From IMG/VR virus record IMGVR_UViG_3300033153_005665, positions 1 to 28,346 of that record: a stretch of DNA of 28,346 bases; one strand, given 5' to 3'. Source of the DNA: a virus. Both the position numbers and the translations under genes were made by a program. Positions within the stretch are counted from its first letter, which is position 1. Each line of letters begins with the position of its first letter. Below are positions 10,083-23,948 of the stretch, piece after piece. The notes under the pieces were generated by a model. That model ran no database searches. It was not told the DNA's origin and saw nothing but the letters and a program-made list of their open reading frames with translations.

Positions 10083-10538
10083 ATGAGGAAATATATAATA
10101 ACGGTAATTGCTTTGGTTTGTATTCTTTTATTACCTATTCATGCGAACCAGCATTATCGGATGAATTTTCTTGCTGCTGCGGAAACGGTGAACGATAACG
10201 CAACTTCCGTTCATGGGACAGGACACACATCCCTTGAAATTGATATTTCAGGTCAATTGGCATACGGGGCGATAACGATAATATTTGACTCTGCCGTACC
10301 AGCTGCTGTAGATATTGAATTCGAATTTTCAGTATCTACCGACCAAGGGACAACCTGGACAACCGAAGGGAATTATTCAATAGCAATACCAACAAATACA
10401 CATGGAGATGCTGATGATGTAGTTGTCTGGACAGAGCCTTTTGATTTTAGCGGGATTAGTAAAATAAGATTGGAGCGGATCTTAGTAGGAAATGGTGCTG
10501 GAAACTGTACTGCTATAGAGGCGTTTATATCATTTTAA
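10083..10538 (+). CDS. Small secreted-type beta protein with signal-peptide-like N-terminus
   Basis: The 151 aa protein begins MRKYIITVIALVCILLLPIHA: a basic n-region, about 16 hydrophobic residues, and a plausible signal peptidase I site after IHA. No lipobox fits (the -3 to -1 residues before the cysteine are A, L, V). The remaining about 128 residues are beta-rich with VDIEFEFSVSTDQGTTWTTE and end in a conserved-looking hydrophobic strand, like small phage beta-sandwich proteins. Head-region phage proteins rarely carry export signals, so either it is a host-envelope protein (for example, surface modification) or the hydrophobic start serves virion membrane anchoring. Strong SD (AGGAGG at 10072). 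It forms a pair with the next gene, which has a similar N-terminus. Confidence 0.65.
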   Translation: MRKYIITVIALVCILLLPIHANQHYRMNFLAAAETVNDNATSVHGTGHTSLEIDISGQLAYGAITIIFDSAVPAAVDIEFEFSVSTDQGTTWTTEGNYSIAIPTNTHGDADDVVVWTEPFDFSGISKIRLERILVGNGAGNCTAIEAFISF

Positions 10539-10550
10539 CAGGAGGCTGAA

Positions 10551-12725
10551 ATGGGAAAAATTAAAAAGTTAGGCTTATTTTTAGGTACTTTATTTTTGAC
10601 CCTGGGGTTGATAAATATTATCTCTGCTCAATTTCCAACTAAAGCCCCTTATTCAGCCGTTTCAAGGGATTTCCGGTTTATGCAAGATGTTCAAATTGAT
10701 GGGGCATTAACTGTTACGGGGGCAATAACAACTACAGGTGGGTTAACTCCAGGCGGCGATATAGTTTTAACTGATGATGAGCAGGTACTTTTCGGAACAG
10801 GTGCAGATGCTAGTATAGATTATGATGATGATGACAACGCCTTAGTTATAGGCGTTCCAATAGCAAGCTCTGAAAAGGGGTTAATAATTGCTGACCAAGT
10901 TGACGTAGCTGCCGACTTTAATTTTGGGGGCTTAGTGACAACAACAAGCCAGCCGGTACTATCATTTGTTGACGCAGATACAGATGCATGGTTTAAAGTA
11001 GGGTTTTTTAATGATGATGAGCCCTTCTTTGAATCTTCAGGCGGGGACTTGTTAATCAACCCGAATTACGACCAAAACGTTACCTTTTTTGAGGGTGTAA
11101 ATGCCAATGGTGAGAATCCGACTATAAAGATATTTGGATATAAAACGGATACCGCTGCTCAGTATGGGCAATGGCAAGTTGACACTTCGGGTAATTTAAT
11201 CATTACAGCAGAAAGTGGGGAGATAGGGTTTGGAAATGAAAACCTAACAACTACAGGGACTTTAGATAGCGGAGCGGTTACCTCTACTGCTGGAGTAACA
11301 GTAAATTCAGCCTTGGCCTCTGGTGAGATTGGGCTGAATCTATTTTCAATAACGCCTACTTATTCTAGATTTGTCCAAAGCGATGCTGAAGGCATAGCGT
11401 CCTCAAGCGATACTCGATTAGGATTAGATGAGACTCTAAGGAATTTTATCATCTGTGACAGAGGGGACATTGCGACTGATTTTACTTTGGCTGCAAGTGC
11501 GAATCCTACAGCTTATTTATATGATGCCGATCACGATAGCTGGTTGATGCTGGGTTGGGATACAGATGATGTCCCTAAATTACAATCAGGCGGTGCAGCA
11601 GCTAAAATTGGATTATATTCAGATTTATTTACTGACCGTTGGCTTGAACAGGATACCAACACATTTATTGGTGTATTATCTGGTGGTGCTGGGAATCTGG
11701 CTCATTCTACCGGAGATGAGGGATACCATAATACCGCAGTTGGATATTGGTCGCTTTTTTCAATAACAGATGGATATAAAAATACTGCTGTCGGGAAAAG
11801 CGCTCTTTATAATAATTTAGGTGGTTATCACAACACCGCTCTTGGCTATAGTGCTTTGCATGGGAATACTACTGGGACTAATAATGTTGCTATAGGATTT
11901 GAGGCTCTACATGGAGGGACTGGCACAGGGACTGGCAACACTGGTCTTGGCAACTCAGCTTTACACAATCTTACATCTGGTCAATACAATGCTGGTATGG
12001 GTGATGGGGCTATGTATTATTTATCTTCTGGGCAATCCAATACTGCTATGGGACGCTCTGCTCTTCTGGGGATTACTACTGGCAGATATAATACTGGAGT
12101 AGGAGAGGGGACGCTTTATTCAAACGATACGGGTTATGGTAATACAGCGATAGGATACAAGGCTCTTAATTTATTTGATCCCGCAAATACAGATGGTGGC
12201 AATATAGCAATCGGTTATCAGGCTGGGGATAATATTACAACTGGCAAGGAAAATATCATAATCGGATACGATTTAAACGCTGCATCAGCTACGGGAGATT
12301 ATCAGATTGATATTGGTGGTATTTATAAGGGGGTAACTAGCGGCGGTACAGCACAGGCGGTAATTGCTGGTCATTTAGACCCAGATGGAGATGGTACTCA
12401 AGACCTTGGGCATCAGACTACAGCTCAGTGGGCTAATCTATGGGCAGATGCGGTCAATGGCTCTGATTTTTGCATGTTAAACGGATGGAGAATTTTAGAA
12501 TCAGAAAAATATCATGGCTATCCGAAAGGTGTTGCGATTGGAAATAGCGGGTTTACCGATGGAATTGTTACGGATAAAATGCCAAGAGATATTGAGCCAT
12601 TATTTGTGGTTACCGAAGAATGGATTGAATATCAGGGAATACGATTTACGAGCAAAGATTTAGAGGGATTGCTATCTTTGCTTCATCAGCATGAGCATAA
12701 GAATGGGGGAGCAGTGATTCATTAA
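10551..12725 (+). CDS. Large repeat protein with signal-peptide-like N-terminus and YadA-head-like repeats
   Basis: This 724 aa protein begins with a basic and hydrophobic leader (KIKKLGLFLGTLFLTLGL) ending ISAQ, a plausible cleavage site after residue 26. Then come beta-rich fibre-like segments (VQIDGALTVTGAITTTGG; SIDYDDDDNALVIG), and from about 391 to 575 some ten roughly 17-residue repeats of the type G-x-x-NTAVG-x-x-AL. These are characteristic of the YadA/Hia head of trimeric autotransporter adhesins and of some phage fibres. No C-terminal autotransporter barrel is present. The end (LFVVTEEWIEYQGIRFTSKD, then LLHQHEHKNGG) resembles fibre tips. I infer a trimeric fibre or adhesin. Whether it decorates the head or is exported to the cell surface is open. 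SD AGGAGG just upstream of ATG 10551. Confidence 0.75.
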   Translation: MGKIKKLGLFLGTLFLTLGLINIISAQFPTKAPYSAVSRDFRFMQDVQIDGALTVTGAITTTGGLTPGGDIVLTDDEQVLFGTGADASIDYDDDDNALVIGVPIASSEKGLIIADQVDVAADFNFGGLVTTTSQPVLSFVDADTDAWFKVGFFNDDEPFFESSGGDLLINPNYDQNVTFFEGVNANGENPTIKIFGYKTDTAAQYGQWQVDTSGNLIITAESGEIGFGNENLTTTGTLDSGAVTSTAGVTVNSALASGEIGLNLFSITPTYSRFVQSDAEGIASSSDTRLGLDETLRNFIICDRGDIATDFTLAASANPTAYLYDADHDSWLMLGWDTDDVPKLQSGGAAAKIGLYSDLFTDRWLEQDTNTFIGVLSGGAGNLAHSTGDEGYHNTAVGYWSLFSITDGYKNTAVGKSALYNNLGGYHNTALGYSALHGNTTGTNNVAIGFEALHGGTGTGTGNTGLGNSALHNLTSGQYNAGMGDGAMYYLSSGQSNTAMGRSALLGITTGRYNTGVGEGTLYSNDTGYGNTAIGYKALNLFDPANTDGGNIAIGYQAGDNITTGKENIIIGYDLNAASATGDYQIDIGGIYKGVTSGGTAQAVIAGHLDPDGDGTQDLGHQTTAQWANLWADAVNGSDFCMLNGWRILESEKYHGYPKGVAIGNSGFTDGIVTDKMPRDIEPLFVVTEEWIEYQGIRFTSKDLEGLLSLLHQHEHKNGGAVIH
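11721..12275 (+). repeat. YadA-head-like peptide repeats in coding DNA
   Basis: About ten degenerate units coding for G-x-x-N-T-A-[VLM]-G-x-x-A-L-x(4-6), starting with GYHNTAVGYWSL and ending near KENIIIGYD. The repetition is at protein level. DNA identity between units is modest, which argues against recent slippage. Confidence 0.75.
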
Positions 12726-14740: not shown

Positions 14741-15129
14741 TTTATTTAGATTTATCCATTTATCCGGCATCGAGTCCTGAAGCCTGCGTATATCATTTTT
14801 TAGAGGCTTGGATAAAGGCTAAATGGAGTGTTATGCTTGAAAATACGCAAAAGAGTTGGGTAATAGCGCAGGATAACCCATTAGAAGCCCTCAGAGCCGT
14901 TTTAAGCCATAATCTCAAGGGTTATAAGGTGTTGGATAGCACACGGCTTAATCCGGTTGTAAATGCTATTACAGTGATTTTGTCCGTAGGAATAGCCCGA
15001 GGGGTAACAAAGAATAAAACCGTTACAATAAGAACGATAAGCGAGATCCAGCCGCTTCTTCCTTCCCCTGAAGGCGAGTGGGGCGTGAATCCTATAACAG
15101 TAGGCATGGAGATTTTCAATGATACCTAA
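14737..15129 (+). CDS. Neck-region protein of unknown family (130 aa)
   Basis: The frame is open from a TTG at 14683, but I place the start at ATG 14737, which forms an ATGA overlap with the previous stop and has AGAGGA at 14722-14727 with nine-base spacing. The product is 130 aa: an N-terminal hydrophobic MIYLDLSIYP strand, an aromatic helix (YHFLEAWIKAKWSVML), then alternating strands (NAITVILSVGIARG; KTVTIRTISEIQP) and a short proline-rich loop (LLPSPEGEW). This composition fits small neck or tail-joining proteins, but I do not recognise it specifically. It overlaps the next gene by 11 bases. Confidence 0.65.
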   Translation: MIYLDLSIYPASSPEACVYHFLEAWIKAKWSVMLENTQKSWVIAQDNPLEALRAVLSHNLKGYKVLDSTRLNPVVNAITVILSVGIARGVTKNKTVTIRTISEIQPLLPSPEGEWGVNPITVGMEIFNDT

Positions 15130-15535
15130 AGTGAAATTGATTGGAATGGGCATGCTTATTGCAAATTATCAAAAATTAGCCACGTTAACTAAGTATCAAA
15201 TAGAGCAAGATTTAATTAAGTCAGGAATAGAGACAGAGAACAGGGCTAAGGGGTATTGTCCCATCGATACCGGGCGCCTCAGAGCCTCCACCTCAACAAA
15301 TTGGTCGCTAAGTGGAAAAACCCGAGCAAAGGTCGGGGGAAAGGCAAAAGCAAATGACGGTATAGGACAGCCTCATGGAAAAGGATTCCAGGTTGCGGTG
15401 GGGACGAATGTTATATATGCCGAACCTGTACACAGGAGAACGCCATATCTATTGACAGCTTACAGGGAAGTTGAAAGGCTATTTATAAAAAAAATGGAAC
15501 TGGCTATGGCAAAAGGGATAAATACTAAATTATGA
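15119..15535 (+). CDS. HK97 gp10-like tail completion protein
   Basis: The 138 aa product has the gp10-type signature: a helical N-terminus, GYCPIDTGRLRAST (the PxDTGRLRxS motif) near residues 43-56, a basic glycine-rich strand (RAKVGGKAKANDG), then VAVGTNVIYAEPVHRRTPYLLTA, matching the VGTNxxYAxxVExGTxxxPxL pattern of the family. It closes or joins the neck end of the tail. GGAG at 15108-15111 supports ATG 15119, within the end of the preceding gene. The tail terminator gene follows with an ATGA overlap, giving the standard siphovirus order. Confidence 0.88.
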   Translation: MIPKVKLIGMGMLIANYQKLATLTKYQIEQDLIKSGIETENRAKGYCPIDTGRLRASTSTNWSLSGKTRAKVGGKAKANDGIGQPHGKGFQVAVGTNVIYAEPVHRRTPYLLTAYREVERLFIKKMELAMAKGINTKL

Positions 15536-15948
15536 GTGACGTAATACAGACTGCATATAAAGAAGTGCAAACGGCAATTTATACTTTGCTGACAGGAGGA
15601 GGTTCACCTATTTCTTGTAACGTATATGACGAAGTACCGGAAGGGGCAGCCTTTCCTTATGTGGTTATGGCTGACTTTTACGACGCTCCGTTTGAAGCAA
15701 GGGATGTTAATGGAAGGTCGATCAGCCTAGAATTCCATGTTTTTTCAAGGAATGCAGGAGGGAAGTTTGAAACTTATGACATCATGGATGAGATATGCGG
15801 GAAAATAACAGCTGGAAAATTAACAATAACCGGGTGGAAAGAAGTTTGGAAGGTGATGGAAAATTCTTATATTGAACAGCTAAAAGAAGAGCCTGGGATT
15901 TCCTGGTTAGGGCATTTACCTTTTACAATCGTGGCGGTGAGATCATAA
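15532..15948 (+). CDS. Tail terminator protein (DUF3168-like)
   Basis: The 138 aa product starts with a helix, MSDVIQTAYKEVQTAIYTLL, then the tell-tale CNVYDEVPEGAAFPYVVMAD, the central SISLEFHVFSRNAGGKFETYDI and the helical ICGKITAGKL. This is the pattern of the DUF3168/tail terminator family, which caps the tail tube at the neck. It overlaps the gp10-like gene (ATGA) and its TAA overlaps the ATG of the sulfotransferase (TAATG). The next gene expected in this synteny is the tail tube, but it is displaced by 1.66 kb of sugar/sulfate genes. Confidence 0.85.
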   Translation: MSDVIQTAYKEVQTAIYTLLTGGGSPISCNVYDEVPEGAAFPYVVMADFYDAPFEARDVNGRSISLEFHVFSRNAGGKFETYDIMDEICGKITAGKLTITGWKEVWKVMENSYIEQLKEEPGISWLGHLPFTIVAVRS

Positions 15949-16736
15949 TGTTAATATTTACAGCTTCCACAGGTCGGTGCGGAACGTTATTTGCTTCCGA
16001 AGTTTTTAGAAGTTTAACAAGCATCCCCTCCTACCATGAACCTCAACCGTGGTGTGTAGATGAAACGCTTGAGCAAGTGAACCAACTATCAGTCCTCGGC
16101 AAAGTGGCTCAAATAGAAATTGATGAGAAGATAGAACAAATCCGAGAATGCAGTTATAAAGGCTGGTACTTTGAATCTTCTCAGATGTTTATAAAATCAT
16201 ATATATACAGAGTTTTAACAAGCTTTAAGGATATCGGGATCCTTTATATAGAACGAAATCCCATAGATGTCGGCTTATCATATGCCAAGAAGTGTAAAAA
16301 TGAGGAAAGCGGTTGGTTCTTGCGGTCAAATTGGAAAGGAAATTTTCTTAGGACAGAAGAAGAGTTGCCTTTTTATCCAAATATTTTATGGCAATGGCTA
16401 GAAATAAAAGAACGATTTAATTGGGCAAAACAATATTGCAATAAATATTATGAACTGGATTTTGAAAAAATAAACCAACCGGAAGAATGGAAACGGATAT
16501 TTAGCAGGTTTGGAGTGAAATATAAAGAATTTTCTATACTACCAAAGGGATTAAAGAAAAATTATTCAATAGACAATGATGAGTATGCTAAGAGGAAATT
16601 TATGCAAAGATATAATGCCCCGATGAAAGGTATTGAAGTTTATAATCCTGAATATCTTAGAAGGAAACAATATATTGACAATGGGATTAAAATAATAGCC
16701 CAGAACTCCGCAGAGGTGAACAGATGCAGGATATAA
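15948..16736 (+). CDS. Sulfotransferase-like P-loop enzyme
   Basis: Sulfotransferases move a sulfuryl group from PAPS to a hydroxyl or amine on sugars, lipids or peptides. This 262 aa protein has both PAPS-contact regions of the family: the 5'-phosphosulfate loop near the N-terminus (TASTGRCGT, residues 5-13, after a hydrophobic strand) and the 3'-phosphate motif RNPIDVGLSYAKK (103-115). An ILWQWLEIKERF helix and a C-terminal LDFEKINQPEEWKRI segment match known folds. No membrane or signal segment is seen, so it acts in the cytoplasm. TAATG overlap with the tail terminator and a 13-base overlap with the glycosyltransferase show it is fully embedded in the operon. The acceptor is unknown; a glycan made by the next gene is an inference. 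A kinase-like P-loop enzyme is a weaker alternative. Confidence 0.8.
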   Translation: MLIFTASTGRCGTLFASEVFRSLTSIPSYHEPQPWCVDETLEQVNQLSVLGKVAQIEIDEKIEQIRECSYKGWYFESSQMFIKSYIYRVLTSFKDIGILYIERNPIDVGLSYAKKCKNEESGWFLRSNWKGNFLRTEEELPFYPNILWQWLEIKERFNWAKQYCNKYYELDFEKINQPEEWKRIFSRFGVKYKEFSILPKGLKKNYSIDNDEYAKRKFMQRYNAPMKGIEVYNPEYLRRKQYIDNGIKIIAQNSAEVNRCRI

Positions 16737-17608
16737 CGATACTTATAACGACCCATAAGCGACCCATTGAGTTGAAGCTCTGTTTAAAAAGCATACGGAA
16801 ATATTATCCGGATATTCCTATAATAGTTATTACAGACGCAAGGCTTACGAATCCGGCATTAAAGGCAATCCATAAAGCACGGGCAAAGCTGTATATTTTA
16901 GAGGATGATGCCGGTTTAAGCAGGATGCGAAATAAGGGCGTTAGAGAGGCGAAGACTCCGTATATAATGATATGTGATGAGGATATAGAGTTTTTGGCTG
17001 AAACGGGCTTAGAGCGGTTTAAATCGGTACTTGAGGCTGACTCAAAGGTTGCTTTGGTAGCAGGGAGCCTGATATATTATGGGGAGAAAAAAGATTTTAT
17101 AAATAACCTGGAAATAAATTGGGATAACCATGAGTATGAAATCATCCCGATAACTAATCCGGTTTGGATAAAAACCAAGTCTGGGATAGAGTATTGCTAT
17201 GCTGAATATGTTTATAATTTTTTCTTATTGCGGAAAACTGCCGGGCTTTATTGGGATGATGATTTAAAAATAGGAATAGAACATATTGATTTTTTTATAC
17301 GGCTTAAAACGAATCATCGAAAATGGAAAGCTGCTACTGTACCTTCAGTTATTGCGAATCATGGAAAATTAACCGTAGCAAAGGAATATTTTAAAGACAG
17401 GAAACGCAAAAAATATTGGCAAATATTCCACAAAAAAACAGGGTTTATCAGAGGAATAAATTTGAATGCAAAATTGATTTATGACTTTAAAGATAATCGC
17501 ACTCTCCCATATCCGGAGTATGTATTTTATCTTTTAAAAAATAAAATAAATGTGAGTCGCGAGGCTTTAAAACAGTCAATCCAACCGGCTCACAAGATTG
17601 GAGGATAA
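16724..17608 (+). CDS. Family-2-type (GT-A) glycosyltransferase
   Basis: The 294 aa protein is a GT-A enzyme that transfers a sugar from a nucleotide donor. Evidence: an N-terminal Rossmann start MQDITILITTHKRP, with LKLCLKSIRKYYPDIPIIVI; an AGLSRMRNKGV helix (63-73); a metal-binding DxD motif ICDEDIEF with D85/D87; and an acceptor-side motif WDDDLKIGIEHIDFFIRLK (177-195). The latter is close to the EHxDFFxRxK region of N-acetylgalactosaminyltransferase-like enzymes. The C-terminus is basic and helical. No membrane segment is visible. It overlaps the sulfotransferase gene by 13 bases and ends one base before the tail tube ATG, whose SD lies inside its last codons. Sugar and acceptor cannot be named. 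Confidence 0.85.
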   Translation: MQDITILITTHKRPIELKLCLKSIRKYYPDIPIIVITDARLTNPALKAIHKARAKLYILEDDAGLSRMRNKGVREAKTPYIMICDEDIEFLAETGLERFKSVLEADSKVALVAGSLIYYGEKKDFINNLEINWDNHEYEIIPITNPVWIKTKSGIEYCYAEYVYNFFLLRKTAGLYWDDDLKIGIEHIDFFIRLKTNHRKWKAATVPSVIANHGKLTVAKEYFKDRKRKKYWQIFHKKTGFIRGINLNAKLIYDFKDNRTLPYPEYVFYLLKNKINVSREALKQSIQPAHKIGG

Positions 17609-17609
17609 A

Positions 17610-18053
17610 ATGGCTGACCAAATCCCAATTTCGGGTGAATATTGCACCCTGACAATCGAAGATGTATCGGTAGCGGCAACAAGGACTTTTTCCTTAGCTG
17701 TTGATAGGGCTACTTATGGTAATTTCGTAGCGCGAGATACTTCAAAATGGAGAACTAATTATGTGGCTGATATCGGGGCTACAATGGACATTGACGGTTT
17801 GATTGTAGTTGTAGATACTTCCCCCACGGCAAAACAGTTTGACGACTTATTCACCTATATCTCAAATGGAACTGTTTTGACTGTTGTATTTACATTGAGA
17901 ACTAACACAACAGGCGAGGCAACCTTTATTTACACCGGCGAAGCGTATCTTACTGCTCTCAATGCTTCAGCCCCGCAGTTTGGAGAAGCAACCTATTCAG
18001 CCAGTTTGATTTTTACTGGTGCAATAACTCAAACAACCGGTTCAGTAAGTTAA
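17610..18053 (+). CDS. Major tail tube protein
   Basis: The start is set at ATG 17610 because GGAGG (17600-17604) is five bases before it; a TTG at 17598 would add only four residues within the SD. The 147 aa product is beta-rich and lacks enzyme motifs. The pattern GEYCTLTIEDVSVAATRTFSL, a central DIGATMDIDGLIV, TLRTNTTGEATFIYTGEAYL and the closing strand YSASLIFTGAITQT matches the TP901-1/gpV-type tail tube family. It is followed by the tail chaperone with frameshift and the tape measure, which makes the call secure. Confidence 0.88.
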   Translation: MADQIPISGEYCTLTIEDVSVAATRTFSLAVDRATYGNFVARDTSKWRTNYVADIGATMDIDGLIVVVDTSPTAKQFDDLFTYISNGTVLTVVFTLRTNTTGEATFIYTGEAYLTALNASAPQFGEATYSASLIFTGAITQTTGSVS

Positions 18054-18071: not shown

Positions 18072-18497
18072 ATGACAGAAATAAATCCGTTTATTTTACT
18101 CACGCTTGACGGCAAACCGTATAAGTATCGGATGTCGCTAAACAGCATTATTGAACTTCAGGAGCGCACAGGAGTGAACCTGGAAGATGCTGATGCTTTG
18201 GCTAAAAAACTCAAGGGCGATTTAAAATTTTTACGCGTTATCATTTACCTTGGAATCAGAACGTATAACAAAAATATAACCGAAGAAGAAGTTGGCGATA
18301 TGATAGATTTAGAAAATATTGGAGAGGTTCTTGATAAGATGTTTATTCACCTTGGGATGACTGTTGAAAAGGAAATTGGGGAAGTAAAAAACGAACAAAG
18401 GGTGGTAAAGAAAAAGACACCCAGCCGTGGAACTGGCAAACAGCCCTCCAAACGGCCTGTCAAATCGGCATCACCCCACAGCAATTCTATGATTTAA
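18072..18497 (+). CDS. Tail assembly chaperone, short (G-type) product
   Basis: The 141 aa product is the shorter of two proteins from this locus. It begins MTEINPFILLTLDGKPYKYR, with a helix NSIIELQERTGVNLED and EEEVGDMIDLENIGEVLDK, fitting small tail chaperones that coat the tape measure during tube assembly. The last about 30 residues (KKKTPSRGTGKQPSKRPVKS) look like readthrough of a region that codes better in the -1 frame. SD AAGGAGGA before ATG 18072. In-frame slippery sites are at 18386 and 18410 (see next entries). Position between tail tube and tape measure is diagnostic. Confidence 0.85.
   Translation: MTEINPFILLTLDGKPYKYRMSLNSIIELQERTGVNLEDADALAKKLKGDLKFLRVIIYLGIRTYNKNITEEEVGDMIDLENIGEVLDKMFIHLGMTVEKEIGEVKNEQRVVKKKTPSRGTGKQPSKRPVKSASPHSNSMI
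18386..18392 (+). other. Candidate programmed -1 ribosomal frameshift site
   Basis: A AAA AAC in the chaperone reading frame is a canonical X-XXY-YYZ heptamer. A second, weaker A-rich site (G AAA AAG, 18410-18416) lies 18 bases later. The -1 frame is free of stops from a TGA at about 18367 onward to the TAA at 18824-18826. Slippage at either site yields a 251 aa fusion. Which site is used cannot be told from sequence. Confidence 0.65.
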
Positions 18498-18827: not shown

Positions 18828-21800
18828 ATGGGAATGGTAGGGACTGTCTATGCTTTATTTACGGCAGACACGACTTCTTTTACCCGAAAGATGAAGGCGC
18901 TTGGGGTATCGGCCGGGACATTAGGTAAGACGTTAACCATGAAACTCACTGCTCCGCTTTTACTTATAGCTGGGGCAGCCGTAAAAGTGTCAGCAGATTT
19001 TGAACAAAAACTGACAAACGCCTTTTCTGTAACCGGCTCGGCAAGTGAAGAAGTTAAAGGGCAGATGGAAGATTTAGCCCGGGCAATGGGAAAAGATACC
19101 GTATTCTCTGCCGGCGAAGCTGCTGACGCTATGTATTATATGGCATGTTTAAAACCTGATGAATACATAATAACTGATGATTATCGAGTTGAGAAAATCG
19201 GAAGCTATAAAGGCAATTCTGTTATTGGGAAAAATGGAGTTTCACAAAAAGTCCTAAAACATACCTATCGCCCTTGTACAGAAGGAGAAGTATTAAAAAT
19301 AAAGCCAGGCTTACAATTACCATTTAGCGTAACGGCGAATCATCCAATATTGGCAATCAAAACAAAACCATGCAGGCCTCATCAGGAAGCAGGGAAAAGC
19401 AATTCGCCAAAATTATGCAAACCTAATTGCAGTTCTTATCTCAGGGAAAACTGCACTAAAGTATATTATGAAGACTATAGGCCAGAGTGGATTGAAGCGG
19501 GAAAATTAAAACCAGGATACGCTCTTCTTATCCCACGAATTAAAAAATCAGAAGAAATACAAATTGACTGGAATGGGTTAGGGATTAATGCTGATTTCTA
19601 TAAGACAAGGTATGGCAAAAATCTTCACGAAAGATTAGATGAAGACTTGGCTTATTTTCTTGGCTTAATGATGGGAGACGGATGGGTTGATAAAGAAAGG
19701 ATCAGTTGTGTTTTTAATGCAGAAAAAGACATAAAATCAAAAATTTGGTTTATTGATTATTTAAAAAAGCATGGGTATTCAACAAATGAAAGAAAAACAC
19801 CAGGAGCTATTCAAGTAACTGCATGGTCAAGGCCGCTTGCTAAACTAATAAGCAAATGGATTGGGAAGGGGGCAGAAAACAAGCATATACCAAAGGCAAT
19901 CTTTCAGGCTGAAGAGAAAATAATCAATTCTTTTCTGCGGGGATATATTACTGCGGATGGTTATGTAGATTATGAAAACAGCATTATTGGTTTAAGCACA
20001 ATTTCACCTCATATTGCTTATACCATCAATTATCTATTAGCAAAAATTGGGATTGTCTTTTCTATAGGAAAAACTAACGGAAAAACAAAGATGATGCCAA
20101 GCGGAAGTGTAAGCGATTGTAAAGATTTGTTTTCTATCTCAACAACGAATCCTGATTATATTGAGAAAATATTTGGGATTAGGCCAAAAAAGGAATTAAA
20201 ATATCAAAAACATTGGATTGATGATGATTATATTTATTTACCAATCCGCTCTATTGAAAAAGAGAAATATGGGGGATTCGTTTATAATCTTGAAACGAAA
20301 GACAATACGTATTCAACTGGAGTGATTGTTCACAACTCTGCCGGCTGGAAAGTTGAACAAATGTCAGTTGCCCTGGAAGATACTTTAAACCTTGCTGCAG
20401 CCACCCAGGAAGACCTGGCATTCACTACAAATACGGTAGTTTCTGCCTTGAATATGTTTGGTAAAAGTGCCTCTGAGGCTGGGGCAGTTGCCGATATTTA
20501 TGCCAACGCTATTTCCAATTCTCAGGCGACTTTAAATAAACTTGGGACTTCAATGAGCTATGTCGGCCCGATTGCAAACTCTTTAGGCTACAGCATAGAA
20601 GATACCACGGCTGCTCTTATGGGACTTTATAATAAGGGCATTGATGCCTCTATGGCAGGGACGGGCTTGCGTATGTCCCTGATGAAACTACTTAAACCGA
20701 CAGGCTCTGCAAAAAAAGCCCTGAAAGAAATGGGCTTGACTATTGAAGATTTAAATCCACAGACGAATTCTCTTACTGATATTGTTAGGAAACTTGAAGC
20801 CGCCAATATGGATGCTAAACAAGCGGTTGAAATATTTGGGGCAAGGGCTTCAGCGGCTATGATCAACCTTGTTGCAACCGGAGGGGATGCCCTGGATGGG
20901 TTTAAGGACAAGCTGGGAGAATCCGGGACTTCTGCCCGAATGGCAGCGCAGCAAATTGATACCCTAAAAGGCCAATGGAAACTTTTAACATCAGCACTTT
21001 CGGAAGTAGCGATTCAGTTTGGGAAAATCTTGATACCGCTTTTAAAGGATTTAATAAACAAACATTTAAAACCATTCGTTCAATGGTTGGGAAGCCTGAA
21101 TGCGGGGACTAAAAAATGGATTGTAGCAATAGCAATCTTAGCCGCTGCTCTGGGACCGCTTGGGTTGTTATTTTCAAAACTAACAATAGCAGCGGGGGCG
21201 CTTGGCAAGGCGTTTACTTTTTTGGCAGCTCATCCGATAGTTGCTACAATTGCCGTCCTGCTTGTATCGATTCCTAAATTAATTAAGGGAATTAATGCTT
21301 TATCTAAATCATATAAAGATTGGCAGGAAATAACAAAAGGAAGCGTTGTTTCCCTTGAAGAAATTATAAGTGCAGTTGAAAAGAATGACAAGGCGTTTGC
21401 TCAATGGTCTGCTGCCCTCATGGTCAACGGAAACGATATGGCCCTTGTGATGAAAAAGCTTGAAAACGGCACGTTAAAAGGTGCTGATGCTGTACAGCAG
21501 TTATACGATGAGCTTAAAGCGGCCGCAAAGGTAACGGAAGAAGCAACTAAAAAAGAAAGCGAATTAAATAAAATTATAGCAGCAGCAACGAAGGGAAAAC
21601 ATGCACTAACGTATAGTTATAGACTTTTGGCAGGTGGAGTTAACGCATATTGTGATAATTTAATATACGAGGCTAAACTTAAGGGGAATCTCACAGAGAA
21701 ACGCAAGGCTGAAATTGAAAAAATAAGAAGTGAATTAACTAACATGGACTTACTCTTTAAGGCACATAATAAAATCACTGCCGCTTTAAAAGACAGAACC

Positions 21801-23948
21801 AACCTTACTCCAAAATTAATTAGCCAATTAGAAAAAAGAAAGGAAGCCCTTGAAAAATTAATCGGGCCGGAAAAAACACACCTCAAGCTGACGAAAGAAC
21901 TTATCCCTAAAATAAAAGACGAAAGGACGGAGATAGAAAAACTTAATGATGAATATTGGGATTTAATGGCAAGGGTTTTTAAAGGGGAAGCGGGCTGGCA
22001 ATCACTTATTGAGCAAGCGGGTATTATAAAAGGTAAAATAAGCGCCTTAAAAGATGAATTCAGCGACCTGGACATGGCAATAGATGATGACGCTGAGGAA
22101 TGGATTGACTTGGGGGATAAGGTCAATACAGTCTTGGAAGATATGGGTTATGGGCTTGGAAGCATACCGGATAAAGTAGATGATGTGGGAGGGAAAATAA
22201 AAACCGGCTGGGGCGAAATGGCAGATGGATTACAGACTAAATGGGCTTCTACAATTAGCGGCATTTTAACAAAAACGGGCGATTTAAAAGAGAAACTTAA
22301 TAGCATGTTCGGTGCTATCAAAACTCAATTTGCAGACATGGCTGGTGAAGCATTGTCTAAATGGATGACAACAACTGCCGGGATGAAAGCGGCAGCGATT
22401 GCCTTTGCTGCCTATGTAACAGTCAACTTAGTATCTCATATATTAAAAGCTTTTGGGATTATAAAAGAAAACTGGGATGATATTTGGGATGAATTAGAAA
22501 AAGCACGGGAAATACCAGATACAGAAAAGGGAACTAAAAGACGACTTGAAGACATGGTGAACGATACAAATGAATGGACGGCAGCGATAGATGAACTGAA
22601 TAAACATTTTAATCTATTTAACAAAACAGGTGAAATGACATTTGAGGGTCAAAAATTACTCAATGATGCTTGGGCTGAGGCTATCAGTTTAGCTAAAAAA
22701 TATGGACAGGAAGGAACTAAGGCATTTGTTGATATGATTAAAAAAATGCGCGAGATGGGGTTGGAATCCGAAGTCCTGTCTGATTATATTTGGGAACAAT
22801 TATCAGCAATCCCGGATGCCTTGAGTATAATGATTAATAACATCCCTGATTTCCAAAGGATTAAGGACAGGATTGCAAAAAAGAAACTCCGGCTTGAGGA
22901 TATAGTTGACCCTGACCTTAGAACAGAATTAATAAAGGAAATAGATGTCCTGGAGGAACGGTTAGCGCGGGGTACTGAATGGGCAGGCAAGAGCCTAAAC
23001 AATACTTCAAAAATAGTTGCCGCTTCCTGGCAAGCCATGATTGCAGAGGGCAAGGGCTATATGGAAGTCCTCGATGCCATGAAAGAACCTTTGGAAGCAC
23101 TCAGACAGCGATATAAAGATTTAGGTCAAGATGTCCCTGAATTTCTTGCACCTATGTTCGACGTGCTTGAAAAAATGGAAGTAGCCCCAAAGGTTTTTGA
23201 AAACCTCGATGCTTCAAGGGCTATTTTAGAATCGCTAACAAATTCTGCCTATTTAACCCAGGATGCCTTTAATGCATTATCTAAATCAGCAGCTTCTTTT
23301 GCAAGGACAATGCTGGGGGTTACCGGAAATCTTAATGACTTTATGAATTCAGCAGAATTAACTACAAATCAAGTCCAGCAATTATTGCCGGTTGTTTCTC
23401 AGTTCGTAGGGGCAGCGGCAGTATTTGGGATGAAAATTCCTGCATGGATGAAGACGTTTGTTGGAAAACAACTTGGGATTGAAGATTTTTCAGAGTTTAA
23501 AAAGACGGCTGCTGCACAAGCCAACGCAGGAGTGGAAACGGTAAAGAAATTAGACAGAGTTGACCAAAGAATAAAAAGGCAGACCGAGAGAATGGTCAGC
23601 AAGTTTGACCAGTTGGGGGATAAATTCTATAAACACCTTGGAACAGTTATGGGTAGGGTAACGAACCGATTAGATAAGATACATAATTCTTTATCAAAAA
23701 TCGGCAGTTTTGCAACCGGTGGAATAGCATGGACTCCACAGCTTGCAACTTTGGCTGAAAATGGCCCTGAAGTAATTTTATCAAAAAGCGACTATGACCA
23801 AAAGATAGCACAGCCAAGTAACATGAATATGATGATAGAAATCCAACCGATTGTAATTCCAAGTAATGAAGGGCATATAATAAAATTCCTACAAAAAAGC
23901 ATAAAAAGGGGAAACTTTAAAATACCAATAAGTGCAGTGGGAGACTAA
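18828..23948 (+). CDS. Tape measure protein, precursor interrupted by an intein
   Basis: The 1706-codon frame encodes a tail tape measure protein that sets tail length and enters the host during infection. The N-terminal region (TADTTSFTRKMKALG, VKVSADFEQKLTNAFSVTGS, DTVFSAGEAADAMYYMA) is typical. After an intein at residues 107-503 the extein resumes with SAGWKVEQMSVALEDTLNLA, restoring the family's conserved YxASAGW motif. The spliced protein would be 1309 aa. It has two hydrophobic patches (about WIVAIAILAAALGPLGLLF, and AAIAFAAYVTVNLV), long coiled-coil stretches, and a C-terminal GGIAWTPQLATLAENGPEVI segment common to these proteins. At about 0.15 nm per residue (general rule for this family) the tail would be near 200 nm. 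ATG 18828 has AGAGGA upstream. Confidence 0.95.
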   Translation: MGMVGTVYALFTADTTSFTRKMKALGVSAGTLGKTLTMKLTAPLLLIAGAAVKVSADFEQKLTNAFSVTGSASEEVKGQMEDLARAMGKDTVFSAGEAADAMYYMACLKPDEYIITDDYRVEKIGSYKGNSVIGKNGVSQKVLKHTYRPCTEGEVLKIKPGLQLPFSVTANHPILAIKTKPCRPHQEAGKSNSPKLCKPNCSSYLRENCTKVYYEDYRPEWIEAGKLKPGYALLIPRIKKSEEIQIDWNGLGINADFYKTRYGKNLHERLDEDLAYFLGLMMGDGWVDKERISCVFNAEKDIKSKIWFIDYLKKHGYSTNERKTPGAIQVTAWSRPLAKLISKWIGKGAENKHIPKAIFQAEEKIINSFLRGYITADGYVDYENSIIGLSTISPHIAYTINYLLAKIGIVFSIGKTNGKTKMMPSGSVSDCKDLFSISTTNPDYIEKIFGIRPKKELKYQKHWIDDDYIYLPIRSIEKEKYGGFVYNLETKDNTYSTGVIVHNSAGWKVEQMSVALEDTLNLAAATQEDLAFTTNTVVSALNMFGKSASEAGAVADIYANAISNSQATLNKLGTSMSYVGPIANSLGYSIEDTTAALMGLYNKGIDASMAGTGLRMSLMKLLKPTGSAKKALKEMGLTIEDLNPQTNSLTDIVRKLEAANMDAKQAVEIFGARASAAMINLVATGGDALDGFKDKLGESGTSARMAAQQIDTLKGQWKLLTSALSEVAIQFGKILIPLLKDLINKHLKPFVQWLGSLNAGTKKWIVAIAILAAALGPLGLLFSKLTIAAGALGKAFTFLAAHPIVATIAVLLVSIPKLIKGINALSKSYKDWQEITKGSVVSLEEIISAVEKNDKAFAQWSAALMVNGNDMALVMKKLENGTLKGADAVQQLYDELKAAAKVTEEATKKESELNKIIAAATKGKHALTYSYRLLAGGVNAYCDNLIYEAKLKGNLTEKRKAEIEKIRSELTNMDLLFKAHNKITAALKDRTNLTPKLISQLEKRKEALEKLIGPEKTHLKLTKELIPKIKDERTEIEKLNDEYWDLMARVFKGEAGWQSLIEQAGIIKGKISALKDEFSDLDMAIDDDAEEWIDLGDKVNTVLEDMGYGLGSIPDKVDDVGGKIKTGWGEMADGLQTKWASTISGILTKTGDLKEKLNSMFGAIKTQFADMAGEALSKWMTTTAGMKAAAIAFAAYVTVNLVSHILKAFGIIKENWDDIWDELEKAREIPDTEKGTKRRLEDMVNDTNEWTAAIDELNKHFNLFNKTGEMTFEGQKLLNDAWAEAISLAKKYGQEGTKAFVDMIKKMREMGLESEVLSDYIWEQLSAIPDALSIMINNIPDFQRIKDRIAKKKLRLEDIVDPDLRTELIKEIDVLEERLARGTEWAGKSLNNTSKIVAASWQAMIAEGKGYMEVLDAMKEPLEALRQRYKDLGQDVPEFLAPMFDVLEKMEVAPKVFENLDASRAILESLTNSAYLTQDAFNALSKSAASFARTMLGVTGNLNDFMNSAELTTNQVQQLLPVVSQFVGAAAVFGMKIPAWMKTFVGKQLGIEDFSEFKKTAAAQANAGVETVKKLDRVDQRIKRQTERMVSKFDQLGDKFYKHLGTVMGRVTNRLDKIHNSLSKIGSFATGGIAWTPQLATLAENGPEVILSKSDYDQKIAQPSNMNMMIEIQPIVIPSNEGHIIKFLQKSIKRGNFKIPISAVGD
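19146..20336 (+). mobile_element. Intein with LAGLIDADG homing endonuclease (397 residues)
   Basis: In-frame element in the tape measure gene. N-terminal splice block begins at Cys107 (CLKPDEYIITDD). Block B has the TxxH signature T169-A-N-H172. The C-terminal end is YNLETKDNTYSTGVIVHN with penultimate His502 and terminal Asn503, followed by extein Ser504, i.e. a standard Cys...His-Asn/Ser splice arrangement. Two LAGLIDADG-type motifs, LGLMMGDGW (D284) and LRGYITADGY (D377), lie 93 residues apart and give a single-chain endonuclease. Between block B and the endonuclease is a C182-C197-C201-C209 cluster (spacing 14/3/7), which might bind zinc. Insertion is exactly between MA and SAGW of the conserved tape measure motif. 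All residues needed for splicing and cutting look intact. Confidence 0.96.

Follow-up and report, generated by a model that had tools for sequence, protein, structure and literature searches.

A variable, putative glycan-modifying cassette with a sulfotransferase in the tail operon of uncultured siphovirus-like phages may decorate the phage particle

The genes described here suggest that a group of uncultured siphovirus-like phages adds sugars to its own particles, and that these sugars vary between phages and are in some cases sulfated. The stretch that we analysed (the window) is an entire virus record of 28,346 nt, which makes it a phage fragment and rules out host DNA. Its late module is ordinary, comprising terminase, portal, capsid protein, adaptor, neck, terminator, tube, chaperone, tape measure and distal tail genes, and a sulfotransferase-family gene (ST) and a glycosyltransferase gene (GT) lie between those for the tail terminator and the tail tube. 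Judging from the sequences and their conserved surroundings, this pair is probably (we would put it at about 60%) one version of a variable late-operon glycan cassette, which would provide a virion protein with a glycan that varies between phages and is sulfated in this one. The features concerned are:

15119..15535, plus strand: neck / HK97-gp10-like protein (phrog_5, weak, 0.003; homologous position in L004-L020)
15532..15948, plus strand: tail terminator, the upstream flank (phrog_176, 9e-14; Tail_completion_gp17 PF11367, 1.4e-7)
15948..16736, plus strand: putative sulfotransferase-family protein (ST), 262 aa (eight-lineage alignment with invariant residues, AF2/Foldseek, hydropathy)
16724..17608, plus strand: GT-A glycosyltransferase (GT), 294 aa, GT2-type fold nearest GT12/GT27 GalNAc transferases (PF00535, AF2, Foldseek, conservation)
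17610..18053, plus strand: major tail / tail tube protein, the downstream flank (phrog_1407, 1.8e-10; Phage_tail_2 PF06199, 9.4e-6)
18072..18497, plus strand: tail assembly chaperone (phrog_2115, 1.2e-11)
18828..23948, plus strand: tape measure protein with intein (PhageMin_Tail, 4.8e-20)

The terminator stop codon (TAA, 15946-15948) shares one nucleotide with the ATG of the ST gene at 15948, the ST and GT genes overlap by 13 nt (16724-16736), and the GT stop ends at 17608, a single nucleotide before the tube ATG at 17610. This ATG, which has a GGAGG ribosome site and is kept in relatives, is the preferred start of the tube gene, an upstream TTG at 17598 being less likely. The reading frames, the overlaps of 1-13 nt, the 1-nt gap and the motifs quoted for the pair in a preliminary description of this DNA (STGRCGT, RNPIDVGLSYAKK, CDED and IGIEHIDFF) can all be read in the sequence. 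Since both proteins are conserved in other phages, at 32-45% identity and with order and place kept, they are not chance open reading frames. A promoter scan of the locus gave no signal above that of shuffled sequences. The GC content of ST and GT (0.35 and 0.36) is slightly lower than the roughly 0.37-0.44 around them, while their GC3 is like that of the neighbours; given this GC3 and the conservation of the GT across lineages, a recent foreign insertion was rejected as the main story. The structural operon also encodes, further upstream (10083-12722), a pair of proteins whose N-termini contain hydrophobic segments that resemble signals. NTAxGxxAL-type repeats are found in the larger one (724 aa), which matches virion structural and tail spike PHROGs (7e-30, 3e-26).

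Taken as a single sequence, the window ST found no match in profile (Pfam, PHROG), PDB or GenBank phage searches, and the same is true of some of its relatives as regards significant profile matches. Two relatives that are 42-44% identical to it nevertheless exceed the PF00685 cut-off of 22 bits (L009, 30.6 bits, 2.8e-7; L020, 24.4 bits, 2.2e-5), and it is through them that the window protein becomes assignable. Its 5'-PSB-like loop (STGRCGT, residues 7-13) and 3'-PB-like motif (RNPIDVGLSY, residues 103-112) are accompanied by a HEP motif (residues 30-32), and in an alignment of eight lineages S7-T13, R103, S111 and HEP are invariant. With a pLDDT of 62 the AF2 model is weak; its best Foldseek matches are largely sulfotransferases (E 4e-4 to 2e-3), but P-loop kinases occur alongside them and score alike. 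A PDB profile search with four STs returned sub-threshold matches only, among them an aryl sulfotransferase (0.34), with the alignment falling on the 3'-PB motif. From its family alignment, the product of 15948-16736 very likely belongs to a divergent sulfotransferase family of the PF00685/PF13469 clan. The earlier assignment thus held: relatives lie above the Pfam cut-off, the PAPS-binding motifs are invariant across the eight lineages, and the profile search did not place the protein outside the sulfotransferase clan.

The second enzyme had likewise been proposed at the outset to be a GT-A glycosyltransferase, and its identity as one of family 2 type is secure at the level of sequence profile and predicted structure, with fold, metal-binding DxD and catalytic acid all in place. 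It matches PF00535 at 1.7e-12 (48 bits against a cut-off of 23.3), and its AF2 model (pLDDT 83.5) has human B4GALNT1 as best Foldseek match (E 2e-17), followed by polypeptide GalNAc transferases (about 1e-11). Among 13 homologous sequences, D87 (of CDED), D178 and H187 are present in all, and E186 and H213 in 12. A weak match to phrog_842, a beta-glucosyl-HMC-alpha-glucosyltransferase (0.0014), would fit a GT that modifies phage DNA, forming a hypermodified base that the ST then sulfates. We regard this as highly improbable, since the fold of the GT comes closest to that of a glycolipid GalNAc transferase and the cassette lies in a late structural operon, whereas DNA-modification genes are normally early. 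Moreover, no gene resembling thymidylate synthase (PF00303) or hydroxymethylase is present in eight related contigs of up to 54 kb, which may be incomplete.

Scans with the tube protein and a tube alignment recovered five further IMG/VR lineages, together with a contig that had been binned as Candidatus Aminicenantes. The tube gene is directly preceded by a gene homologous to the window GT in 7/7 lineages (window, L003, L004/L005, L006, L009-L011, L013-L016 and L020); a further tube match, L012, begins inside the tube gene and is uninformative for this position. What stands between terminator and GT varies: ST alone in the window and L009, a 187-aa methyltransferase-like protein without Pfam match together with ST in L004, a GT-B (PF13439) in L006, ST with a second GT in L020, and nothing in L015, the L003 contig being cut off at this slot. 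The proposed comparison of related genomes at the terminator-tube junction has revealed a constant GT next to a variable slot. Averaged over these lineages, identity is 67% for the tube, 44% for terminator and ST, 38% for GT and 36% for the chaperone, which puts the divergence of the cassette enzymes at about the pace of other fast genes. The same arrangement occurs on the 5.8-kb contig binned as Ca. Aminicenantes, but among the phylum's 396 genomes just one has the tube, so that Aminicenantes can only tentatively be named as hosts.

Independent scans with the ST and the tape measure protein uncovered a related type in which the cassette precedes the terminator instead of following it, and so comes directly after the neck gene (whose homologue at 15119..15535 thus marks the boundary of the alternative position). 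It is found in L002, L036, L038, L106/L107, L109 and L111, with a content that again differs: a methyltransferase-like gene, GT and a GT-LicD-GT fusion in L002, ST, GT, LicD and methyltransferase in L106/L107, and ST, GT and a LicD-like gene in L109. Rarer arrangements are a tail protein, radical SAM, GT, ST and tail fibre series in L019, and a run of about ten sugar or methyl transfer genes directly before head-completion genes in L110 (120-7759), which includes two sulfotransferases of different families and in which the present ST adjoins a putative head-closure gene, called by position and size. In a search with the ST only, the family lay in head-tail or tail operons in 9/9 lineages and directly beside a GT in 8/9, which bears out the idea of a sugar-sulfating cassette. 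It is the head-tail/tail operon that is conserved as the context of the cassette, whereas contact with the tube gene is not. Three of these loci hold further features: a DUF483-like protein accompanies radical SAM, GT and ST in L019 (2906-6747), possibly a further virion-modification cassette; a RIO1-kinase-like protein (PF01163, 4.7e-5) lies in the neck-terminator cassette of L038 (2104-2694); and the ST gene of L111 (225-945) is split over two frames, with STGCCGT for STGRCGT, and is decayed or misassembled next to an intact GT.

Such mobility could mean that the neck-tail stretch is simply a hotspot that tolerates inserted cargo, the substrates of which (other virion parts, small molecules, antibiotics) would be unrelated to the tail. 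In favour of this, the cassette occupies either of two adjacent junctions, or in rarer cases another site, and about ten such genes have accumulated in L110; we still consider it fairly unlikely. The replacements are non-random, being mostly glycan- or methyl-modifying enzymes, and the GT tree consists of two well supported groups that match the two cassette positions. As the GT is also kept in all lineages of both main types, it is an old resident rather than passing cargo.

Compared with phages outside these types, the position of the pair is unusual, as had been claimed. In the more distant tape measure relatives, terminator and tube are adjacent or nearly so, with nothing of this kind between them (loci read in detail: L031, L033-L035, L037, L039, L040, L042-L044 and L046-L051). 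No other locus from the tape measure scan had a GT or ST profile match, although a GT profile built from this family may miss unrelated GTs there. Relatives of the ST are lacking from 50,697 GenBank phage records and from 72,556 plasmids, and a pattern scan of 84,980 prokaryote genomes gave no match, one phage-like contig in a MAG carrying a relative. Cellular relatives, sought in the 396 genomes of the Aminicenantes MAG's phylum, amounted to two weak partial matches.

How might such a cassette work? We infer catalytic activity, reaction order, donors and a virion acceptor along the following lines. The GT, as the core, vertically inherited part, would take a sugar (HexNAc, perhaps) from a nucleotide-sugar of the host and attach it to the acceptor, and the ST, as the accessory part, would sulfate the added sugar with host-made PAPS. 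A host origin of PAPS is probable because no APS kinase gene is present in the eight related contigs, which may be incomplete. The cytoplasm is the most likely place for both enzymes to modify newly made virion protein, since they are soluble, lack signal or membrane segments, are co-translated with tail proteins and have mostly glycan-type neighbours; particles would then end up with a variable, here sulfated and negatively charged, glycan. The exchangeable neighbours (GT-B, LicD, methyltransferases) fit glycan building. Among the points against a virion glycan, the varying position of the cassette marks no single neighbour as acceptor, and contigs may be incomplete, such that the sugar might serve other purposes through genes beyond their ends.

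It is also conceivable that the pair acts late on a glycan at the surface of the host, be it LPS, capsule or glycoprotein, masking receptors against loss of progeny on debris or against superinfection. Loci for cell-surface polysaccharides are known to contain genes of all these kinds (GT2, LicD, methyltransferase, sulfotransferase), and the cassettes are variable as such loci are. Yet this seems unlikely to us, because hydropathy reveals no transmembrane segment in either ST or GT, the cassette has no membrane partner gene and is strictly embedded in structural operons, the promoter signal is not above chance and an integrase gene is absent from the eight related contigs, which may be incomplete. 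The known serotype-converting phage systems rely on a membrane flippase and polytopic transferases that are expressed in the lysogen. Serotype conversion of the Gtr type is accordingly an unlikely explanation for two proteins without membrane segments in a late operon whose eight relatives show no integrase.

If the glycan is destined for the virion, the tube protein made next door comes to mind as acceptor. The tube is rich in Ser/Thr (24.5%), and its T/S-rich end TQTTGSVS is kept in most lineages; both features are compatible with O-glycosylation but do not argue for it. Adjacency as proof of this acceptor was rejected, as the position of the cassette varies. Since the cassette moves to sites before the terminator, before head closure or beside a tail fibre, the tube is plausible as acceptor, but we would bet against it. 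Tentative, and in our view somewhat less likely than not, is the scenario in which the core GT and its exchangeable partner (ST, methyltransferase, LicD or second GT) form a hypervariable glycan locus that endows the tail or another virion part with a type-specific, sometimes sulfated coat. Such a tail-operon locus would be analogous to bacterial surface-antigen loci.

Glycosyltransferases of mycobacteriophages (Che8, Corndog and Myrna; Freeman et al., 2023, as cited in PMC12619734 and PMC12363180) are reported, in the portions of these two papers that were covered, to glycosylate virions, with glycans on the C-termini of capsid and tail tube. They share with the window a phage-encoded GT, and the window GT is weakly similar to the Myrna glycosyltransferase gp234 (E 0.03), in whose genomic region another glucosyltransferase and a structural protein of the virion are also encoded. 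They belong to another phage group, however, no sulfotransferase is mentioned in those portions, and their GTs need not reside in the tail operon (those of Maravista lie near the 3' end), whereas the window GT sits at the neck-tail junction with a swapped neighbour gene. The window ST has the TGRxGT 5'-PSB-like loop, the RNPxxVxxSY 3'-PB-like motif and, judging from its weak model, a P-loop fold in common with PF00685 (Sulfotransfer_1) and PF13469 enzymes, but its family is divergent, with an invariant HEP. OM43 phages and Synechococcus phage S-SRM01 carry PF13469-type sulfotransferases, whose function is called unclear in PMC10580990; a tail-operon context beside a GT is not described in the portions of it that were covered, and the window ST lacks a GenBank phage match. 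The window GT resembles B4GALNT1 (GT12) and the polypeptide GalNAc transferases (GT27) in its GT-A fold and DxD/H layout, at about 20% identity and without a lectin domain. A distant GT homologue (28% identity, 8e-8; profile 1.4e-26) is encoded in the head-tail operon of isolated Salinibacter ruber phages (184 phage records), where it is annotated as hypothetical and lies two genes downstream of that for the major capsid protein, for instance in OR896166.1 (L023, 7367-8485). It lies in the head region without a sulfotransferase match, unlike the window GT at the tail junction beside the ST, but it offers a possible culturable system for virion glycosylation. A literature search found no paper joining phage, sulfotransferase, glycosyltransferase and tail tube, and no description of virion sulfation or of a hypervariable locus inside a tail operon.

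The phage particle is commonly regarded as protein without decoration; to our knowledge, only in a few actinobacterial phages have glycosylated tails or capsids been described. Over known virion glycosylation, the added sulfotransferase and the hypervariable slot inside the tail operon would be new, albeit unproven, and we know of no sulfated phage particle that would precede this one. If the virion is indeed modified, a mass increase of 80 Da on a hexose or HexNAc of a virion protein is predicted, and some phages would diversify their surface chemistry as bacteria diversify capsules. It would also provide phage sulfotransferases with a concrete function, where PMC10580990 terms their function unclear.

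Inteins occur in two genes of these loci. An in-frame intein in the tape measure gene of the window (19146-20336) starts with CLKPDEYI, ends with VIVHN followed by a +1 Ser, and contains a LAGLIDADG endonuclease domain (PF14528, 7e-13), the MASAGW site being uninterrupted in L003, L004, L006 and L009. In L014 (2157-3644), and also in L015 and L016, the neck HK97-gp10-like gene beside a cassette holds an intein of another kind (Intein_splicing, 1.3e-7), which comes with a DUF559/Vsr-like nuclease.
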